In this document: piece after piece, positions 1-13,369 of the stretch
How the letters are laid out: the number at the start of each line of letters is the position of its first letter
Numbering within the stretch: the stretch's first letter is position 1
Assembly (NCBI GenBank): GCA_902796855.1
Contig: CADBQN010000011.1
Coordinates: 1-32,081, forward strand
DNA length: 32,081 bases
Reading direction: 5' to 3'
From: an uncultured Bacillota bacterium
Lineage (GTDB): Bacteria > Bacillota > Dehalobacteriia > UBA7702
Notes under the pieces: generated by a model
Seen by the model: only the letters and a program-made list of their open reading frames with translations
Database searches by the model: none
What the model was told of the DNA's origin: nothing
Position numbers and translations under genes: made by a program

Positions 1-116
1 AAAATTCCGCGAAAAAAGATCCGCGCTTTCGCGCCATCCCGACAATACCGCGCCCCGGGGCGGCAGTGTGGTTTGCGCAGGCCCGCCGCCCGACTCAAAG
101 GGTTTCGTTGAGGATC

Positions 117-220
117 GGGATGATGCCGCGAGCCTCTTTAGCGGCTTACCGCAATAAGGTATATGCGCGGAAACTGTTCCGGAAGTTCTCGCATTCCAAA
201 GAGGCCCGCGCCATCATCCC
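117..220. repeat. Large imperfect inverted repeat (23 bp arms)
   Basis: The left arm (117-139) and right arm (198-220) are complementary at 21 of 23 positions and enclose a 58-base loop that has smaller complementary segments (AACT/AGTT around TTCCGGA). The transcript would fold into a long hairpin on either strand. No T-tract follows on either side, so it is not an ordinary terminator. It could be a structured RNA, a recombination or miniature-element remnant, or a cruciform. No flanking target duplication was recognised. Confidence 0.6.
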
Positions 221-276
221 ACATAATCCGTTTCAATCCAAAAAAATCAGTCTGATCCGGATATACTCGGGTACAA

Positions 277-307
277 CAAAAAAATCTTACGAGTCACCCC
301 GTAAGAT
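277..307 (-). terminator. Intrinsic terminator ending the cobalamin-riboswitch unit
   Basis: On the minus strand an 8-bp perfect stem (ATCTTACG/CGTAAGAT, 8-base loop) is followed by seven to eight T residues. It lies about 190 nt beyond the riboswitch terminator and would end any read-through transcript without crossing a sizeable gene. Confidence 0.75.
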
Positions 308-328
308 CATCTTCTTCGCACGCGTTTT

Positions 329-403
329 TCAATGAGAATCATTGACTTTTTTTATAAAATAAAGTAGAATAAAGATGTTCCGAGAAATGATCTTGGAGCT
401 CAT
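329..403 (-). CDS. Possible 24-residue hydrophobic peptide
   Basis: An ATG ORF of 24 residues lies between the riboswitch terminator and the distal terminator. It has a hydrophobic core (NIFILLYFI) flanked by basic residues, as in small membrane peptides and type I toxins. No Shine-Dalgarno sequence precedes the ATG, and the opposite strand carries the promoter and Fur-like box, so the ORF may be fortuitous. It is listed because it is the only ORF start in the read-through part of the riboswitch transcript that gives more than a few codons. Confidence 0.18.
   Translation of the reverse strand: MSSKIISRNIFILLYFIKKVNDSH
331..345 (+). promoter_or_regulatory. Fur-like operator overlapping a plus-strand promoter
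   Basis: The 11-base core TGAGAATCATT matches the central part of Fur boxes (consensus TGATAATnATTATCA). Its right half overlaps the -35 hexamer at 342-347, where a bound repressor would block initiation. The outer right half is degenerate, so metal specificity (Fur or another family member) is an inference. Confidence 0.5.
342..370 (+). promoter_or_regulatory. Sigma-A type promoter of candidate sRNA
   Basis: TTGACT at 342-347 and TAGAAT at 365-370 are separated by exactly 17 bases. The predicted start is near 377, and the only thing downstream is a short terminated transcript. Confidence 0.6.
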
Positions 404-461
404 ACACTGTGATGAGGGTGTTCTCGCCAAAGAAATTTGCCTCGTCACAGTGTTTTTATTT
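377..461 (+). ncRNA. Candidate Fur-regulated small RNA, antisense to the riboswitch unit
   Basis: The predicted transcript starts about 7 bases after the -10 box and ends at an intrinsic terminator, giving roughly 80-85 nt with no ORF. CGAGAA near its 5' end (381-386) can pair with TTCTCG (422-427) in the terminator loop, a pseudoknot-like contact. It is antisense to the read-through portion of the cobalamin-riboswitch transcript, including the start of the small hydrophobic ORF. Expression is inferred from promoter and terminator only. Confidence 0.45.
405..461 (+). terminator. Intrinsic terminator of the candidate sRNA
   Basis: The arms 405-417 and 440-452 form a 13-bp stem with a single G-T wobble, followed directly by TTTTTATTT. 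The T-tract is only on this side, so the terminator acts on plus-strand transcription. Confidence 0.7.
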
Positions 462-467
462 AGTTAG

Positions 468-495
468 TAAAAAATGTATTCCTTTCTCGGAATAC
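468..495 (-). terminator. Expression-platform terminator of the cobalamin riboswitch
   Basis: A 7-bp stem (GTATTCC/GGAATAC) with a 6-base loop is followed on the minus strand by A and then six T residues. It starts 29 bases after the aptamer. A second hairpin (ATCTCT/AGAGAT) lies between aptamer and terminator and may take part in the switch. The layout is that of a transcription-terminating off-switch. Confidence 0.75.
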
Positions 496-524
496 ATCTC
501 TATAAAATACCCCAAGAGATTTGT

Positions 525-664
525 GGCAATATAGCGTATCCTGACTTCGCATCATCACGTCCCTCCGCCTTCCCAGCCGCGTACAGCCAGTGGCATAATG
601 GAGTTTGCTCCGCTTTACAGTTCCTTGGTAGAGTTCGGGATTCACACCCGATTCCCATATTACC
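525..664 (-). promoter_or_regulatory. Cobalamin (adenosylcobalamin-class) riboswitch aptamer
   Basis: On the minus strand the P1 arms GGTAATAT (664-657) and ATATTGCC (532-525) pair, with one G-U, around a complete B12 element. Inside it, in order, are GGTGTGAATCCCG, AACTGTAA, the B12-box core GCCACTG (594-588), GGGAAGG, and GATGATGCGAAGTCAGGATAC. These match the conserved blocks of the family closely. In this family, coenzyme B12 binding normally turns down cobalamin synthesis or transport genes or B12-independent isozymes. Here no such gene follows before the terminator at 277-307. Confidence 0.93.
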
Positions 665-743
665 ATCTATTCAATTAAACAGCTTTACGTTTTACTACGA
701 TATTTTTTTCAGAAACAATCTTTTCTGATTTTTCATTTCTTTT

Positions 744-772
744 ATTATACTTGTCTTCTCTGTGATAATCAA
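744..772 (-). promoter_or_regulatory. Promoter of the cobalamin-riboswitch transcript
   Basis: TTGATT (772-767) and TATAAT (749-744) are separated by 17 bases, with a start near 737. Upstream, A/T tracts at 780-825 contain the direct repeat GCTATTTT at 793-800 and 814-821, one every 21 bp (two helical turns), consistent with an UP element or a regulator site. Confidence 0.75.
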
Positions 773-8227: not shown

Positions 8228-10735
8228 ATGAAAAAAAACCTGATACCTTTCTTCCTCGTTCTCTTCACCTTTACTCTGATCCTGGCGGCGCCGACGGCGG
8301 CGTCAGCCTTTTCCGTGACCGTCAATCAAACGGAAGTGCCCTATTCGTCGGCGACGGGCTATCCCTATGACGCCGGCGGCACGCCGATGATTCCCGTCCA
8401 ACAGACAATGACCTATTACGGCGCCATCTGCGCCACGGATCCCCATACCGGCGACACCGTCCTCAACCTCGGCGTCAACGAAATCCGCGTATTTGACAAT
8501 CAGGCCAAAATTGCCGTCAACGGCAATCTTGTTGCCACCGGCGCCGCCGCTGTGAAAAAGAACGGCGTTCTGTACGCCCCGGCAAAAGAGATCATCACCG
8601 GTCTGGGCGGCTATTACGCTTATAACGGCGCCAAGCTGGAGATCGCCACACAGACACAGGATCACGCCGTCTATATGCTGGAAAAGAAAAAGAAAGCGCG
8701 GGATATCTGGGGAACATGGGCAACAGCCAATGATCAAAAGAACGCGGGAAATTACCGGGCCGCGATCCCCAATTATGAGATCAGTGTCCCCGGTATGCTG
8801 GCGGAAAAGAACGATCTGGGCCTCGCCCTTTGCTATCAGCGCCTGGCCATCTGCTATGCCAGAACCGGGAGCTATGATAAAGCCGCGGCATCATTTCAGC
8901 GCTCCTCTTATTACTGGAACATCTGCGGCGACGACCAGACAGCTTTGATCACGCACAAATGCGATAAGAACATCCGCGAGGAGATCCGTCTCTTTTGGAA
9001 AACGGAAGACGGGGCCCGCTCCGTCGCGACGGCCCACCGGGTAAATTATGAACCGGAACGCGGCGTCGTCTTGGGCTACACCAGCGACGCGACAAACACA
9101 TACCCCTCGACCAGCGCCAAACAGGCGGGAATGTGGCTCACCTACGCGCAGTACACCGATGACGTTGGACCGGGGACCGCCATCGACCGCAAGATCCAAA
9201 GCGTTGCTGACGATACCGTCATTGAGCTGGCCATTGAACCGGGAAAAGGCTGGATCTCTCTCAGCGACGAAACGACCAAAAATTGGGCACTTTATCTCCA
9301 TAACTGCGGCAAAAAAGTGATGGTGCGCTTTGCCAATGAAATGAACGACTCCTCCAACGGCTGGTACACCTCGAATTACGACACCTACAAAAACGGCTAT
9401 ATTCGATTCGCGAAGGTTTTCCGCCAATACGCCCCGGAAATCCCGCTGATCTGGGCACCGAACTTTTTCCCGGAAAACGTCGTCGATCACTACTATCCCG
9501 GCGACGATTACGTCGACTACGTGGGGATTTCCAGCTACATTTTTTCCCGGACTCTCACCGCCGCCGAAATTCAGGCGAACTACGACATTCTCGGGACCGG
9601 CAAGCGGCTCGACCGCTGGAGCCAGCAGATCGATTTTCTCTACAACCGCTACGCCTATAAAAAGCCGATCCTCATCTCGGAAGGCGCCGTCTCCTACGTC
9701 GATAAGAACGCGGGAGCGCAGATTGTCAACGAAGCGGCGTATCAGATCGGCGATATGTATACCTATCTGCCGATCCGCTACGCGAACCTCAAATACGCTG
9801 TTTACTTCAACATCGATAAAGAAAACAAAAAAGAACAGTACCGTTTATCGGATCACGCGGAACTCCTGAACGCCTATAACGGCGCGATTCAAAGCGACAG
9901 CTTCCTTTCGGATTTCCGGCAGACGGCGCCGTTCTCCTACGTCCCCCTTGAGGGTCTGACGGAACGGGATCTCCTTCCCGATACGAAGCAGACGCTCTGC
10001 GCCTACGTCAAATACGGCGACGACAGCGCCGTTCGCTCCGTTCGTTACAGCGTCAACGGGACCGCCGTCGGCACCGCCGCAGCGCCGCCTTACGAAATCA
10101 CCTGCGATTTAAAGCCTTACGCGGGTCAGAGAATCAACATCAAAGCGGAAATCCTTGATAAGAACGGCAAAGTCCTCACATCGAAAGTGTTCCGCGTCAC
10201 TGTGGAAGGTTTTTCCGACGTTCCGGCCAAGGCCTATTTCTGCGACGCCGTTCAGTGGGCCGTCGATCAAAAGATCACCGAAGGCACCTCCAAAACGACG
10301 TTCTCCCCAAAGAACGACTGCACCAGAGGTCAGGTCGTCACCTTCCTGTGGCGTGCCGCAGGTTCTCCCGAGCCCGTTACTGCGGAAAACCCCTTCAGCG
10401 ATATCGCGCCGAAAAACTATTATTACAAAGCGGTGCTCTGGGCCGCGGAAAACGAAATCACCAAAGGCACCTCCGCCACGGCCTTCAGCCCGAACAAAAC
10501 GTGCAGCCGCGGCGAGATCGTCACGTTTCTGTGGCGGGCCGCCGGCAGCCCCCAAGACGGCAGCGGAACGGAAAATCCCTTCAGCGACGTCCGTGCCGAC
10601 AAATTCTACTATCAGTCGGTGCTTTGGGCCGTCAACAGAGGCGTCACCAAGGGATCGACGGCGACGACCTTTAATCCGGAAAAAACCTGCACAAGAGCGG
10701 AAGTGGTCACCTTTATCTACCGCGACCGGAAATAA
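8228..10735 (+). CDS. Secreted SLH-anchored GH26-like glycoside hydrolase
   Basis: The 835-residue protein has a signal peptide (about 1-27), a copper-amine-oxidase-N-like domain (about 31-140), and TPR-like helices (about 155-235). A GH26-type barrel follows (about 275-545), then a Big/Ig-like domain (about 570-655) and three SLH repeats (about 661, 720 and 782 onward). In the barrel E371 (MVRFANEMND) is placed as acid/base and E485 (PILISEGA) as nucleophile, 114 residues apart; WAPNF and VDYVGISSY support the fold. GH26 enzymes cut beta-mannans or mixed beta-glucans, and SLH repeats tether the protein to cell-wall polymers. The usual His before the acid/base Glu is Asn here. The ATG at 8228 has AGGGG 9 bases upstream; an in-frame ATG at 8207 has none. 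The neighbour across the terminator is another SLH protein. Confidence 0.87.
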   Translation: MKKNLIPFFLVLFTFTLILAAPTAASAFSVTVNQTEVPYSSATGYPYDAGGTPMIPVQQTMTYYGAICATDPHTGDTVLNLGVNEIRVFDNQAKIAVNGNLVATGAAAVKKNGVLYAPAKEIITGLGGYYAYNGAKLEIATQTQDHAVYMLEKKKKARDIWGTWATANDQKNAGNYRAAIPNYEISVPGMLAEKNDLGLALCYQRLAICYARTGSYDKAAASFQRSSYYWNICGDDQTALITHKCDKNIREEIRLFWKTEDGARSVATAHRVNYEPERGVVLGYTSDATNTYPSTSAKQAGMWLTYAQYTDDVGPGTAIDRKIQSVADDTVIELAIEPGKGWISLSDETTKNWALYLHNCGKKVMVRFANEMNDSSNGWYTSNYDTYKNGYIRFAKVFRQYAPEIPLIWAPNFFPENVVDHYYPGDDYVDYVGISSYIFSRTLTAAEIQANYDILGTGKRLDRWSQQIDFLYNRYAYKKPILISEGAVSYVDKNAGAQIVNEAAYQIGDMYTYLPIRYANLKYAVYFNIDKENKKEQYRLSDHAELLNAYNGAIQSDSFLSDFRQTAPFSYVPLEGLTERDLLPDTKQTLCAYVKYGDDSAVRSVRYSVNGTAVGTAAAPPYEITCDLKPYAGQRINIKAEILDKNGKVLTSKVFRVTVEGFSDVPAKAYFCDAVQWAVDQKITEGTSKTTFSPKNDCTRGQVVTFLWRAAGSPEPVTAENPFSDIAPKNYYYKAVLWAAENEITKGTSATAFSPNKTCSRGEIVTFLWRAAGSPQDGSGTENPFSDVRADKFYYQSVLWAVNRGVTKGSTATTFNPEKTCTRAEVVTFIYRDRK

Positions 10736-12792: not shown

Positions 12793-13209
12793 TCAATGAC
12801 CTTTGTGCTTTTCTTTTCGTTTTTGTTGTTTCTGCTGAAACCGACGTTTTTTCTCCGCTTCCCGCTGTTCTTTGGAGACTCTTTCACGCTCCGTTTTCAT
12901 TTCTTCCCGCCGGGCCTGAAGCGCCTGCTGAGATTTTGTGCCGACGCCGCTGTTTCGCAGCTGCTTTTGAATCTCACGCTGTCTGCGTTTCGGGCGGTCG
13001 GCGGCCTGCCGCGCTTCCGCGGGGACAGCGGGGCTGAATTTCAGACCGACGTACCGTTTGAGAATGAAATCCAGTACCTCGTAATCTTTCGGTTCGGCTC
13101 CGAACGTCACTTTACAGACGGTCAGTTTTCCGTCACAGACGCGCTCAAACACGCCGACCCAAAAAGGATCCTCAAAAAAAACCGTCAGTTTCTGGTCGAT
13201 CCTGTCCAT
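12793..13209 (-). CDS. yjdF: YjdF family protein (DUF2992)
   Basis: The 138-residue protein has the YjdF core (LTVFFEDPFWVGVFER, CKVTFGAEPKDYEV, FILKRYVGLKFSPAV) followed by a long basic, Gln/Glu/Lys-rich helical tail (about 70-138). Biochemical function is not established; YjdF genes are typically governed by a riboswitch sensing azaaromatic compounds and are thought to protect against such molecules. The ATG at 13209 follows AAGGAGGG. It stands alone, with the riboswitch directly upstream and a hairpin directly downstream. Confidence 0.9.
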   Translation of the reverse strand: MDRIDQKLTVFFEDPFWVGVFERVCDGKLTVCKVTFGAEPKDYEVLDFILKRYVGLKFSPAVPAEARQAADRPKRRQREIQKQLRNSGVGTKSQQALQARREEMKTERERVSKEQREAEKKRRFQQKQQKRKEKHKGH

Positions 13210-13234
13210 AACAATCCCTCCTTTAACGTGTTAT

Positions 13235-13345
13235 GGACAAAGAACGGACAACCCGGGAGGGGCAGGTTACTTACCCTGTTTTACAGGACGGCCGGGCTAC
13301 CTACCGGCTCTGGCGCTTTTGAAAAGAGGCGCGTTGCGTTTTTAT
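13235..13345 (-). promoter_or_regulatory. yjdF-type riboswitch
   Basis: The yjdF leader is about 110 nt of compact structure: an outer GCGC...GCGC pairing, GCCGGTAGGTAGCCCGGC, CCTGTAAAACAGG and TAAGTAACCTGCCC, ending about 25 nt before the start codon. The GGTAGGTAGCC and AAGTAACCTG blocks are what I remember of the yjdF motif, and the position next to yjdF agrees. In this family azaaromatic ligands raise expression, usually by freeing the ribosome-binding site; no terminator is seen before the gene, which fits translational control. The boundaries are approximate. Confidence 0.72.
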
Positions 13346-13369
13346 CTTTGTCTTTTATGTATGTTACAG

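Follow-up and report, generated by a model that had tools for sequence, protein, structure and literature searches.

Candidate antisense attenuator placed in series with a cobalamin riboswitch in the leader of a probable surface-protein gene of an uncultured Bacillota bacterium

The window, which is the whole stretch of 32,081 nucleotides analysed here, comes from an uncultured Bacillota bacterium, and its base 1 coincides with an end of contig C11 in an assembly of 84 contigs. Close to this end, the minus strand carries a predicted transcript with a cobalamin riboswitch and two intrinsic terminators, which are given below in the direction of transcription.

744..772, minus strand: promoter of the riboswitch transcript, TTGATT-17-TATAAT, 10/12 by consensus scan
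516..702, minus strand: cobalamin riboswitch aptamer (RF00174), model positions 1-189 of 189 by cmscan
468..497, minus strand: terminator 1, the expression platform of the riboswitch, ATGTATTCC-GAGAAA-GGAATACAT-TTTTTT
276..308, minus strand (hairpin 308-283): terminator 2, GATCTTACGGGG..CGTAAGAT and then a T-tract; arm sequence ATGATCTT

The aptamer is a full-length match to its family (74.4 bits against a gathering score of 31.5, E 8.7e-17), and the two terminators, 160 bases apart, have fold energies of -14.1 kcal/mol (terminator 1) and -14.2 kcal/mol (terminator 2). The consensus scan, cmscan and the folds confirmed the minus-strand promoter, the complete aptamer and both terminators named in a preliminary description of this DNA. 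The same description had seen no ORF longer than about 25 codons between the terminators, but a 39-codon GTG ORF is present there (448-329, minus strand); nothing like it is kept in the second copy of the locus on contig C64 of the same genome. B12-dependent termination at terminator 1 is predicted from the placement of this terminator after the aptamer.

Between the two terminators, the plus strand carries a predicted promoter-RNA-terminator unit of its own, which runs antisense to the riboswitch transcript and had escaped the preliminary description.

342..370, plus strand: antisense RNA promoter, TTGACT-17-TAGAAT, 10/12
about 374..462, plus strand: predicted antisense RNA, about 85 nt, two hairpins, non-coding; both ends are estimates based on its promoter and terminator
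377..399, plus strand: antisense hairpin 1, GUUCCGAGA/UCUUGGAGC, which complements the 5' strand of the antiterminator (see below)
404..458, plus strand: antisense hairpin 2, by folding, which is the terminator of the antisense RNA, and then a T-tract
421-441, plus strand: recognition loop of hairpin 2, UUCUCGCCAAAGAAAUUUGCC, 21 nt

The predicted antisense RNA is fully complementary to the read-through of the riboswitch, and its fold energy of -38.8 kcal/mol is far below the shuffle mean of -18.5 (z -7.4). Hairpin 2 has 14 bp and starts 33 bases past the plus-strand promoter; its T-tract is present on the plus strand only, and one of its G-U pairs would not be possible on the opposite strand, where A would face C. 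The idea that a B12 riboswitch governs non-coding RNA here can be kept, but the small RNA that is conserved differs from the riboswitch transcript, being encoded separately by the plus strand. A coding reading of the antisense RNA (a 30-codon ORF at 375-467 and similar) was rejected, as the two copies differ by 2 nt within the hairpin, which shifts the reading frames so that they are not conserved, and the stop lies beyond the terminator. Other Rfam sRNA families gave no match near threshold. When the loop pattern was searched for in 84,980 species genomes, the four exact 19-mer matches lay in unrelated contexts without an sRNA-like setting, and they were attributed to chance. We also observed a Fur-box-like sequence, TTCAATGAGAATCATTGAC, at 328-346 (plus strand), which overlaps the -35 element of the antisense promoter; it scores 13/19, equal to others in the window and so not above background, and is absent in C64.

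The homologous locus on contig C64 is 72% identical to window positions 365-693 and keeps the same order of aptamer, terminator, opposite-strand promoter with a two-hairpin RNA, and terminator. Its antisense promoter is TTGACA-17-TAAAAT (11/12), its terminator 1 is the homologous GTATTCC..GGAATAC, and a counterpart of terminator 2 stands at the same position. Identity between the two copies is highest in hairpin 2 (87%), compared with 68% in the aptamer, 59% in the antisense promoter region, 55% in the 5' part of the antisense RNA and 33-54% elsewhere, and the 21-nt recognition loop is identical. Where hairpin 2 differs, pairing is kept (one G-C to A-U and one G-U to A-U change). Hairpin 1 of C64, GUCCCGAGA..UCUU(A)GGGGC, shows one U-A to C-G change relative to the window, and its G-U pairs in the two copies are possible on the antisense-RNA strand only. 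A covariance model of the RNA (R1) found only the window and C64 copies in 43 genomes of the class, with 107-109 bits.

The window ends 275 bases past terminator 2, and since base 1 is the contig end, the absence of a downstream gene is uninformative. The earlier statement that the transcript has no evident protein gene rests on this contig end; in the C64 copy, the leader is followed by a reading frame for an SLH and DUF4430 protein that spans 2131 aa or more. One further element lies between terminator 2 and the contig end of the window.

59..93, minus strand: GC-rich hairpin GGCGGC..GCAAACCACACTGCCGCC, loop GCAAACCAC, a leader element found at five riboswitch loci

Exact matches to this hairpin occur only downstream of the riboswitches in C11, C24, C25, C64 and C76 (other sites: L027 ~9980-10020, L028 ~2840-2865, L029 ~9010-9050 on the minus strand and L031 ~8545-8585 on the minus strand), and it is possibly another leader RNA element. 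Its presence at 59-93 indicates that the leader continues past terminator 2, and as it is common to the window and four other riboswitch loci, the window's own gene, which probably encodes a surface protein, should lie a short way beyond the contig end. Among the sibling riboswitches in the same genome, C24, C52 and C76 precede SLH proteins; the protein behind C25 has 564 aa and matches no family.

Several other features were noted in these leaders and elsewhere in the sequences. A long imperfect hairpin, GATGATGGCGCGGGCCTCTTT..AAAGAGGCTCGCGGCATCATC, lies just beyond terminator 2 (110-205, minus strand), with a similar one in C64 (L027 ~9815-9910), and other sibling loci have the motifs TCTTTGAAAACAGC.. 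/ GGCGGCCAAAACGAGCGG. A 119-codon charged ORF without a family match (L027 10175-10534, plus strand) separates the C64 leader from the surface protein. The genome G000 holds 15 cobalamin riboswitches in 2.1 Mb, several of which control SLH surface proteins that also have a DUF4430, PQQ propeller or Ig-like domain. The window also contains an azaaromatic (yjdF) riboswitch (70.9 bits, 13228-13355, minus strand) in the ordinary arrangement upstream of a DUF2992 (YjdF) protein (12793-13209, minus strand). A PYLIS_3 element, the pyrrolysine insertion element of mttB, was detected at L032 6156-6255 (minus strand), so that the organism may use pyrrolysine.

Using the arrangement at the window as a guide, we surveyed 48 cobalamin riboswitches from the four genomes of the family, looking in the 400 bases after each one for an opposite-strand promoter of at least 10/12 with an intrinsic terminator 60-130 bases further. 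By these criteria, which like the controls for the second gate described below were set after the first locus was known, antisense units were found at 3 of the 48 riboswitches (the window, C64 and G003:C1), and shuffled sequences gave a mean of 0.005 loci and never reached three in 200 rounds. Elsewhere in the class, the same scan of 80 riboswitches yielded no antisense unit. The third locus, G003:C1, belongs to a different but related genus, and its antisense sequence is unrelated. Behind it come a secreted protein, whose match to DUF4430 is weak (E 0.013, which does not reach the cut-off) and which is 39% identical to the protein behind the sibling riboswitch C24, and then a 922-aa SLH protein. 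Two further apparent units were set aside as chance, one inside a transporter gene (G002:C200) and one weak (G003:C83), and the siblings C24, C25, C52 and C76 have no antisense unit.

An antisense unit in this position could act on terminator 2 if the leader held a competing structure, and prefix folding, in which the nascent leader is folded without the 3' arm of terminator 2 and anything beyond it, points to a candidate antiterminator (AAGATCAT) with the following strands.

381..399, minus strand: antiterminator 5' strand, CUCCAAGAUCAUUUCUCG, wholly within the antisense-covered stretch
296..318, minus strand: antiterminator 3' strand, CGAAGAAGAUGAUCUUACGGGG, overlapping the 5' arm and loop of terminator 2

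In the best prefix fold of both the window and C64, the 5' arm and GGGG loop of terminator 2 pair with the antisense-covered stretch, namely the part covered by the 5' half of the antisense RNA. The window helix pairs CUCC-AAGAUCAU-UUCUCG with CGAAGAAG-AUGAUCUU-AC-GGGG, and the C64 helix pairs CCCC-GAGU-GUUG-UCUCG with CGAGG-CAAU-GGCUC-AC-GGGG; the two helices have the outer CYCC:GGGG and inner UCUCG pairings in common and differ in the sequence of their middle part. In C64, the end of the antiterminator 5' strand coincides exactly with the predicted start of the antisense RNA. In both copies, a predicted helix that would exclude an intrinsic terminator has its 5' strand in the region covered by the antisense RNA. 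The window duplex has an energy of -19.5 kcal/mol, and 65 of 2000 shuffles were as good, compared with 4 of 2000 for C64. At G003:C1, an 8-bp helix, CAAGGGCA:TGCCCTTG, is found in the same place; alone it is not significant (p 0.27), and the three loci combined give a Fisher p of 0.001. In minimum-energy folds of the full-length leader, terminator 2 forms even without the antisense RNA, so the antiterminator could act kinetically only. Masking the antisense-covered stretch in partial folds gave a change from 0.74 to 0.64 in the window and from 0.67 to 0.72 in C64, by which the arm is not clearly freed. The alignment of the window and C64 places no antiterminator pair in shared columns, and two homologous sequences are too few to demonstrate covariation of single antiterminator pairs.

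Taken together, we favor, with a probability of roughly 0.58, a leader of a surface-protein gene that has two gates in series, a B12 riboswitch and then an antisense attenuator of the pT181/pIP501 type. What the sequence shows directly is the set of parts, together with a second copy and a third locus; antisense transcription, the response to B12, antisense-induced termination and the feedback are what these parts would predict. At gate 1, binding of B12 would favor terminator 1. Once the polymerase is past terminator 1, the nascent leader would fold a recognition hairpin, the complement of antisense hairpin 2, and next the antiterminator helix, which would hold the 5' arm of terminator 2. The antisense RNA would pair with the recognition hairpin via its conserved loop and then cover the antiterminator 5' strand, by which terminator 2 would form and the gene would stay off. 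With high B12, transcription would stop at terminator 1, and leak-through would be caught at terminator 2 by the antisense RNA. With low B12, the polymerase would pass terminator 1 and cross the antisense gene and its promoter, and this read-through would both titrate the antisense RNA and interfere with its synthesis, so that gate 2 opens and a steep or two-state response to B12 shortage should result. As DUF4430 is the C-terminal domain of animal (vertebrate) transcobalamins (PMC4350170), B12 capture at the cell surface is a reasonable guess for the function, and the SLH and DUF4430 genes suggest that the circuit would control it.

The antisense RNA could also be read as a trans-acting regulator whose gene is silenced in B12 shortage by the riboswitch transcript, following the logic of AspocR, with terminator 2 merely ending the riboswitch transcript that runs antisense. 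The closed unit, with terminator 2 just past the antisense promoter in both copies, and the perfectly conserved 21-nt loop are in line with this, as are the known antisense-acting riboswitches (PMC9943018); however, a complement search of the genome with the loop core gave no convincing site in a 5'-UTR or at a gene start, and neither the match of the antisense 5' part to the terminator 2 arm nor the location of all three antisense units in leaders of the surface-gene riboswitch family would be explained, so we regard it as unlikely. Alternatively, the leader could be a plain B12-off switch in which no true antiterminator exists and the antisense RNA acts only by ordinary transcriptional interference or by causing RNase III to cut the leader. 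The dominance of terminator 2 in full-length folds and the sibling riboswitches that control similar genes without an antisense unit would fit such a switch. As the antiterminator pairing exceeds shuffles in the window and C64, and the start site of the antisense RNA sets the limit of the antiterminator 5' strand, it seems to us improbable.

Two readings offered by the preliminary description fare worse. A remnant, with a riboswitch that lost its gene or with chance terminators, would account for a contig without a gene downstream, but the contig stops shortly after terminator 2, leader elements persist beyond this terminator, and the second copy, in which the antisense hairpin is more strongly conserved than the aptamer, has an intact gene; this makes decay very improbable. 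The proposed B12-responsive sRNA resembling EutX or Rli55, made as part of the riboswitch transcript and bound by an ANTAR protein, would show the same order of aptamer, terminator, non-coding tail and terminator. It is hardly credible here, as the conserved structure belongs to the other strand and a scan of both strands for paired A..G.. hexaloop hairpins found none beyond the aptamer; when a stem of 5 bp or more was required, positions 270-772 gave a single A..G.. hexaloop, which is part of the aptamer.

With the two-gate reading, further consequences can be considered. A riboswitch transcript that silences its own antisense repressor would form a double-negative feedback, which may act as a B12 threshold or two-state switch, and with identical recognition loops, the antisense RNAs of the two paralogous loci could cross-regulate each other like members of one plasmid incompatibility group. 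That all of these, the two-gate leader, the silencing of its own repressor and the cross-regulation of paralogues, hold jointly for chromosomal surface-protein genes is put forward only tentatively. If true, a metabolite signal would be linked to an RNA-based threshold device, the logic of plasmid copy control would be brought to chromosomal surface genes, and other 'orphan' riboswitches with two terminators would merit a search of the opposite strand.

Compared with known systems, the locus shares features with several. In the antisense-acting riboswitches, AspocR of Listeria and the SAM riboswitch at ubiG-mccBA of Clostridium (PMC9943018), riboswitch read-through is likewise antisense to another transcription unit, so that the two units must interfere, and AspocR had rightly been named as a relative. 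In those cases, the victim is a protein gene with the riboswitch at its 3' end, whereas here the opposite-strand unit is non-coding and the victim would be a small RNA gene within the riboswitch's own leader. In Shigella flexneri, the antisense RNA RnaG attenuates transcription of the surface-protein gene icsA, but RnaG is 450 nt long, lies on the virulence plasmid, is countered by the protein VirF and involves no riboswitch (PMC5394118). The sibling DUF4430/SLH riboswitches C24, C25, C52 and C76 have the same aptamer subfamily, type of terminator 1 and kind of downstream gene, and the window differs from them by its antisense unit. The closest likeness is to pT181, in which a recognition hairpin is followed by an antiterminator that sequesters the terminator 5' arm, and the antisense RNA, complementary throughout, covers the antiterminator (PMC4878617); the parts predicted in the window would match this mechanism part for part. 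Like RNAI of pT181 and RNAIII of pIP501, the antisense RNA is a short stem-loop RNA predicted to have its own promoter opposite a leader with a recognition hairpin, and it would cover an antiterminator sequestering the 5' arm of an intrinsic terminator. Unlike these plasmid copy-control systems, the recognition hairpin and the antiterminator strand are separate elements here, and there is no replication gene but a chromosomal-type surface gene downstream of a riboswitch; as the genes at C64 and G003 are SLH/DUF4430 genes, the locus would work like the plasmid attenuator family rather than be a member of it. We found no described case of a riboswitch and an antisense attenuator sharing one leader in the literature searched, within its limits. 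Riboswitches and antisense attenuators are each known, and their combination in one leader is, within that literature, new.
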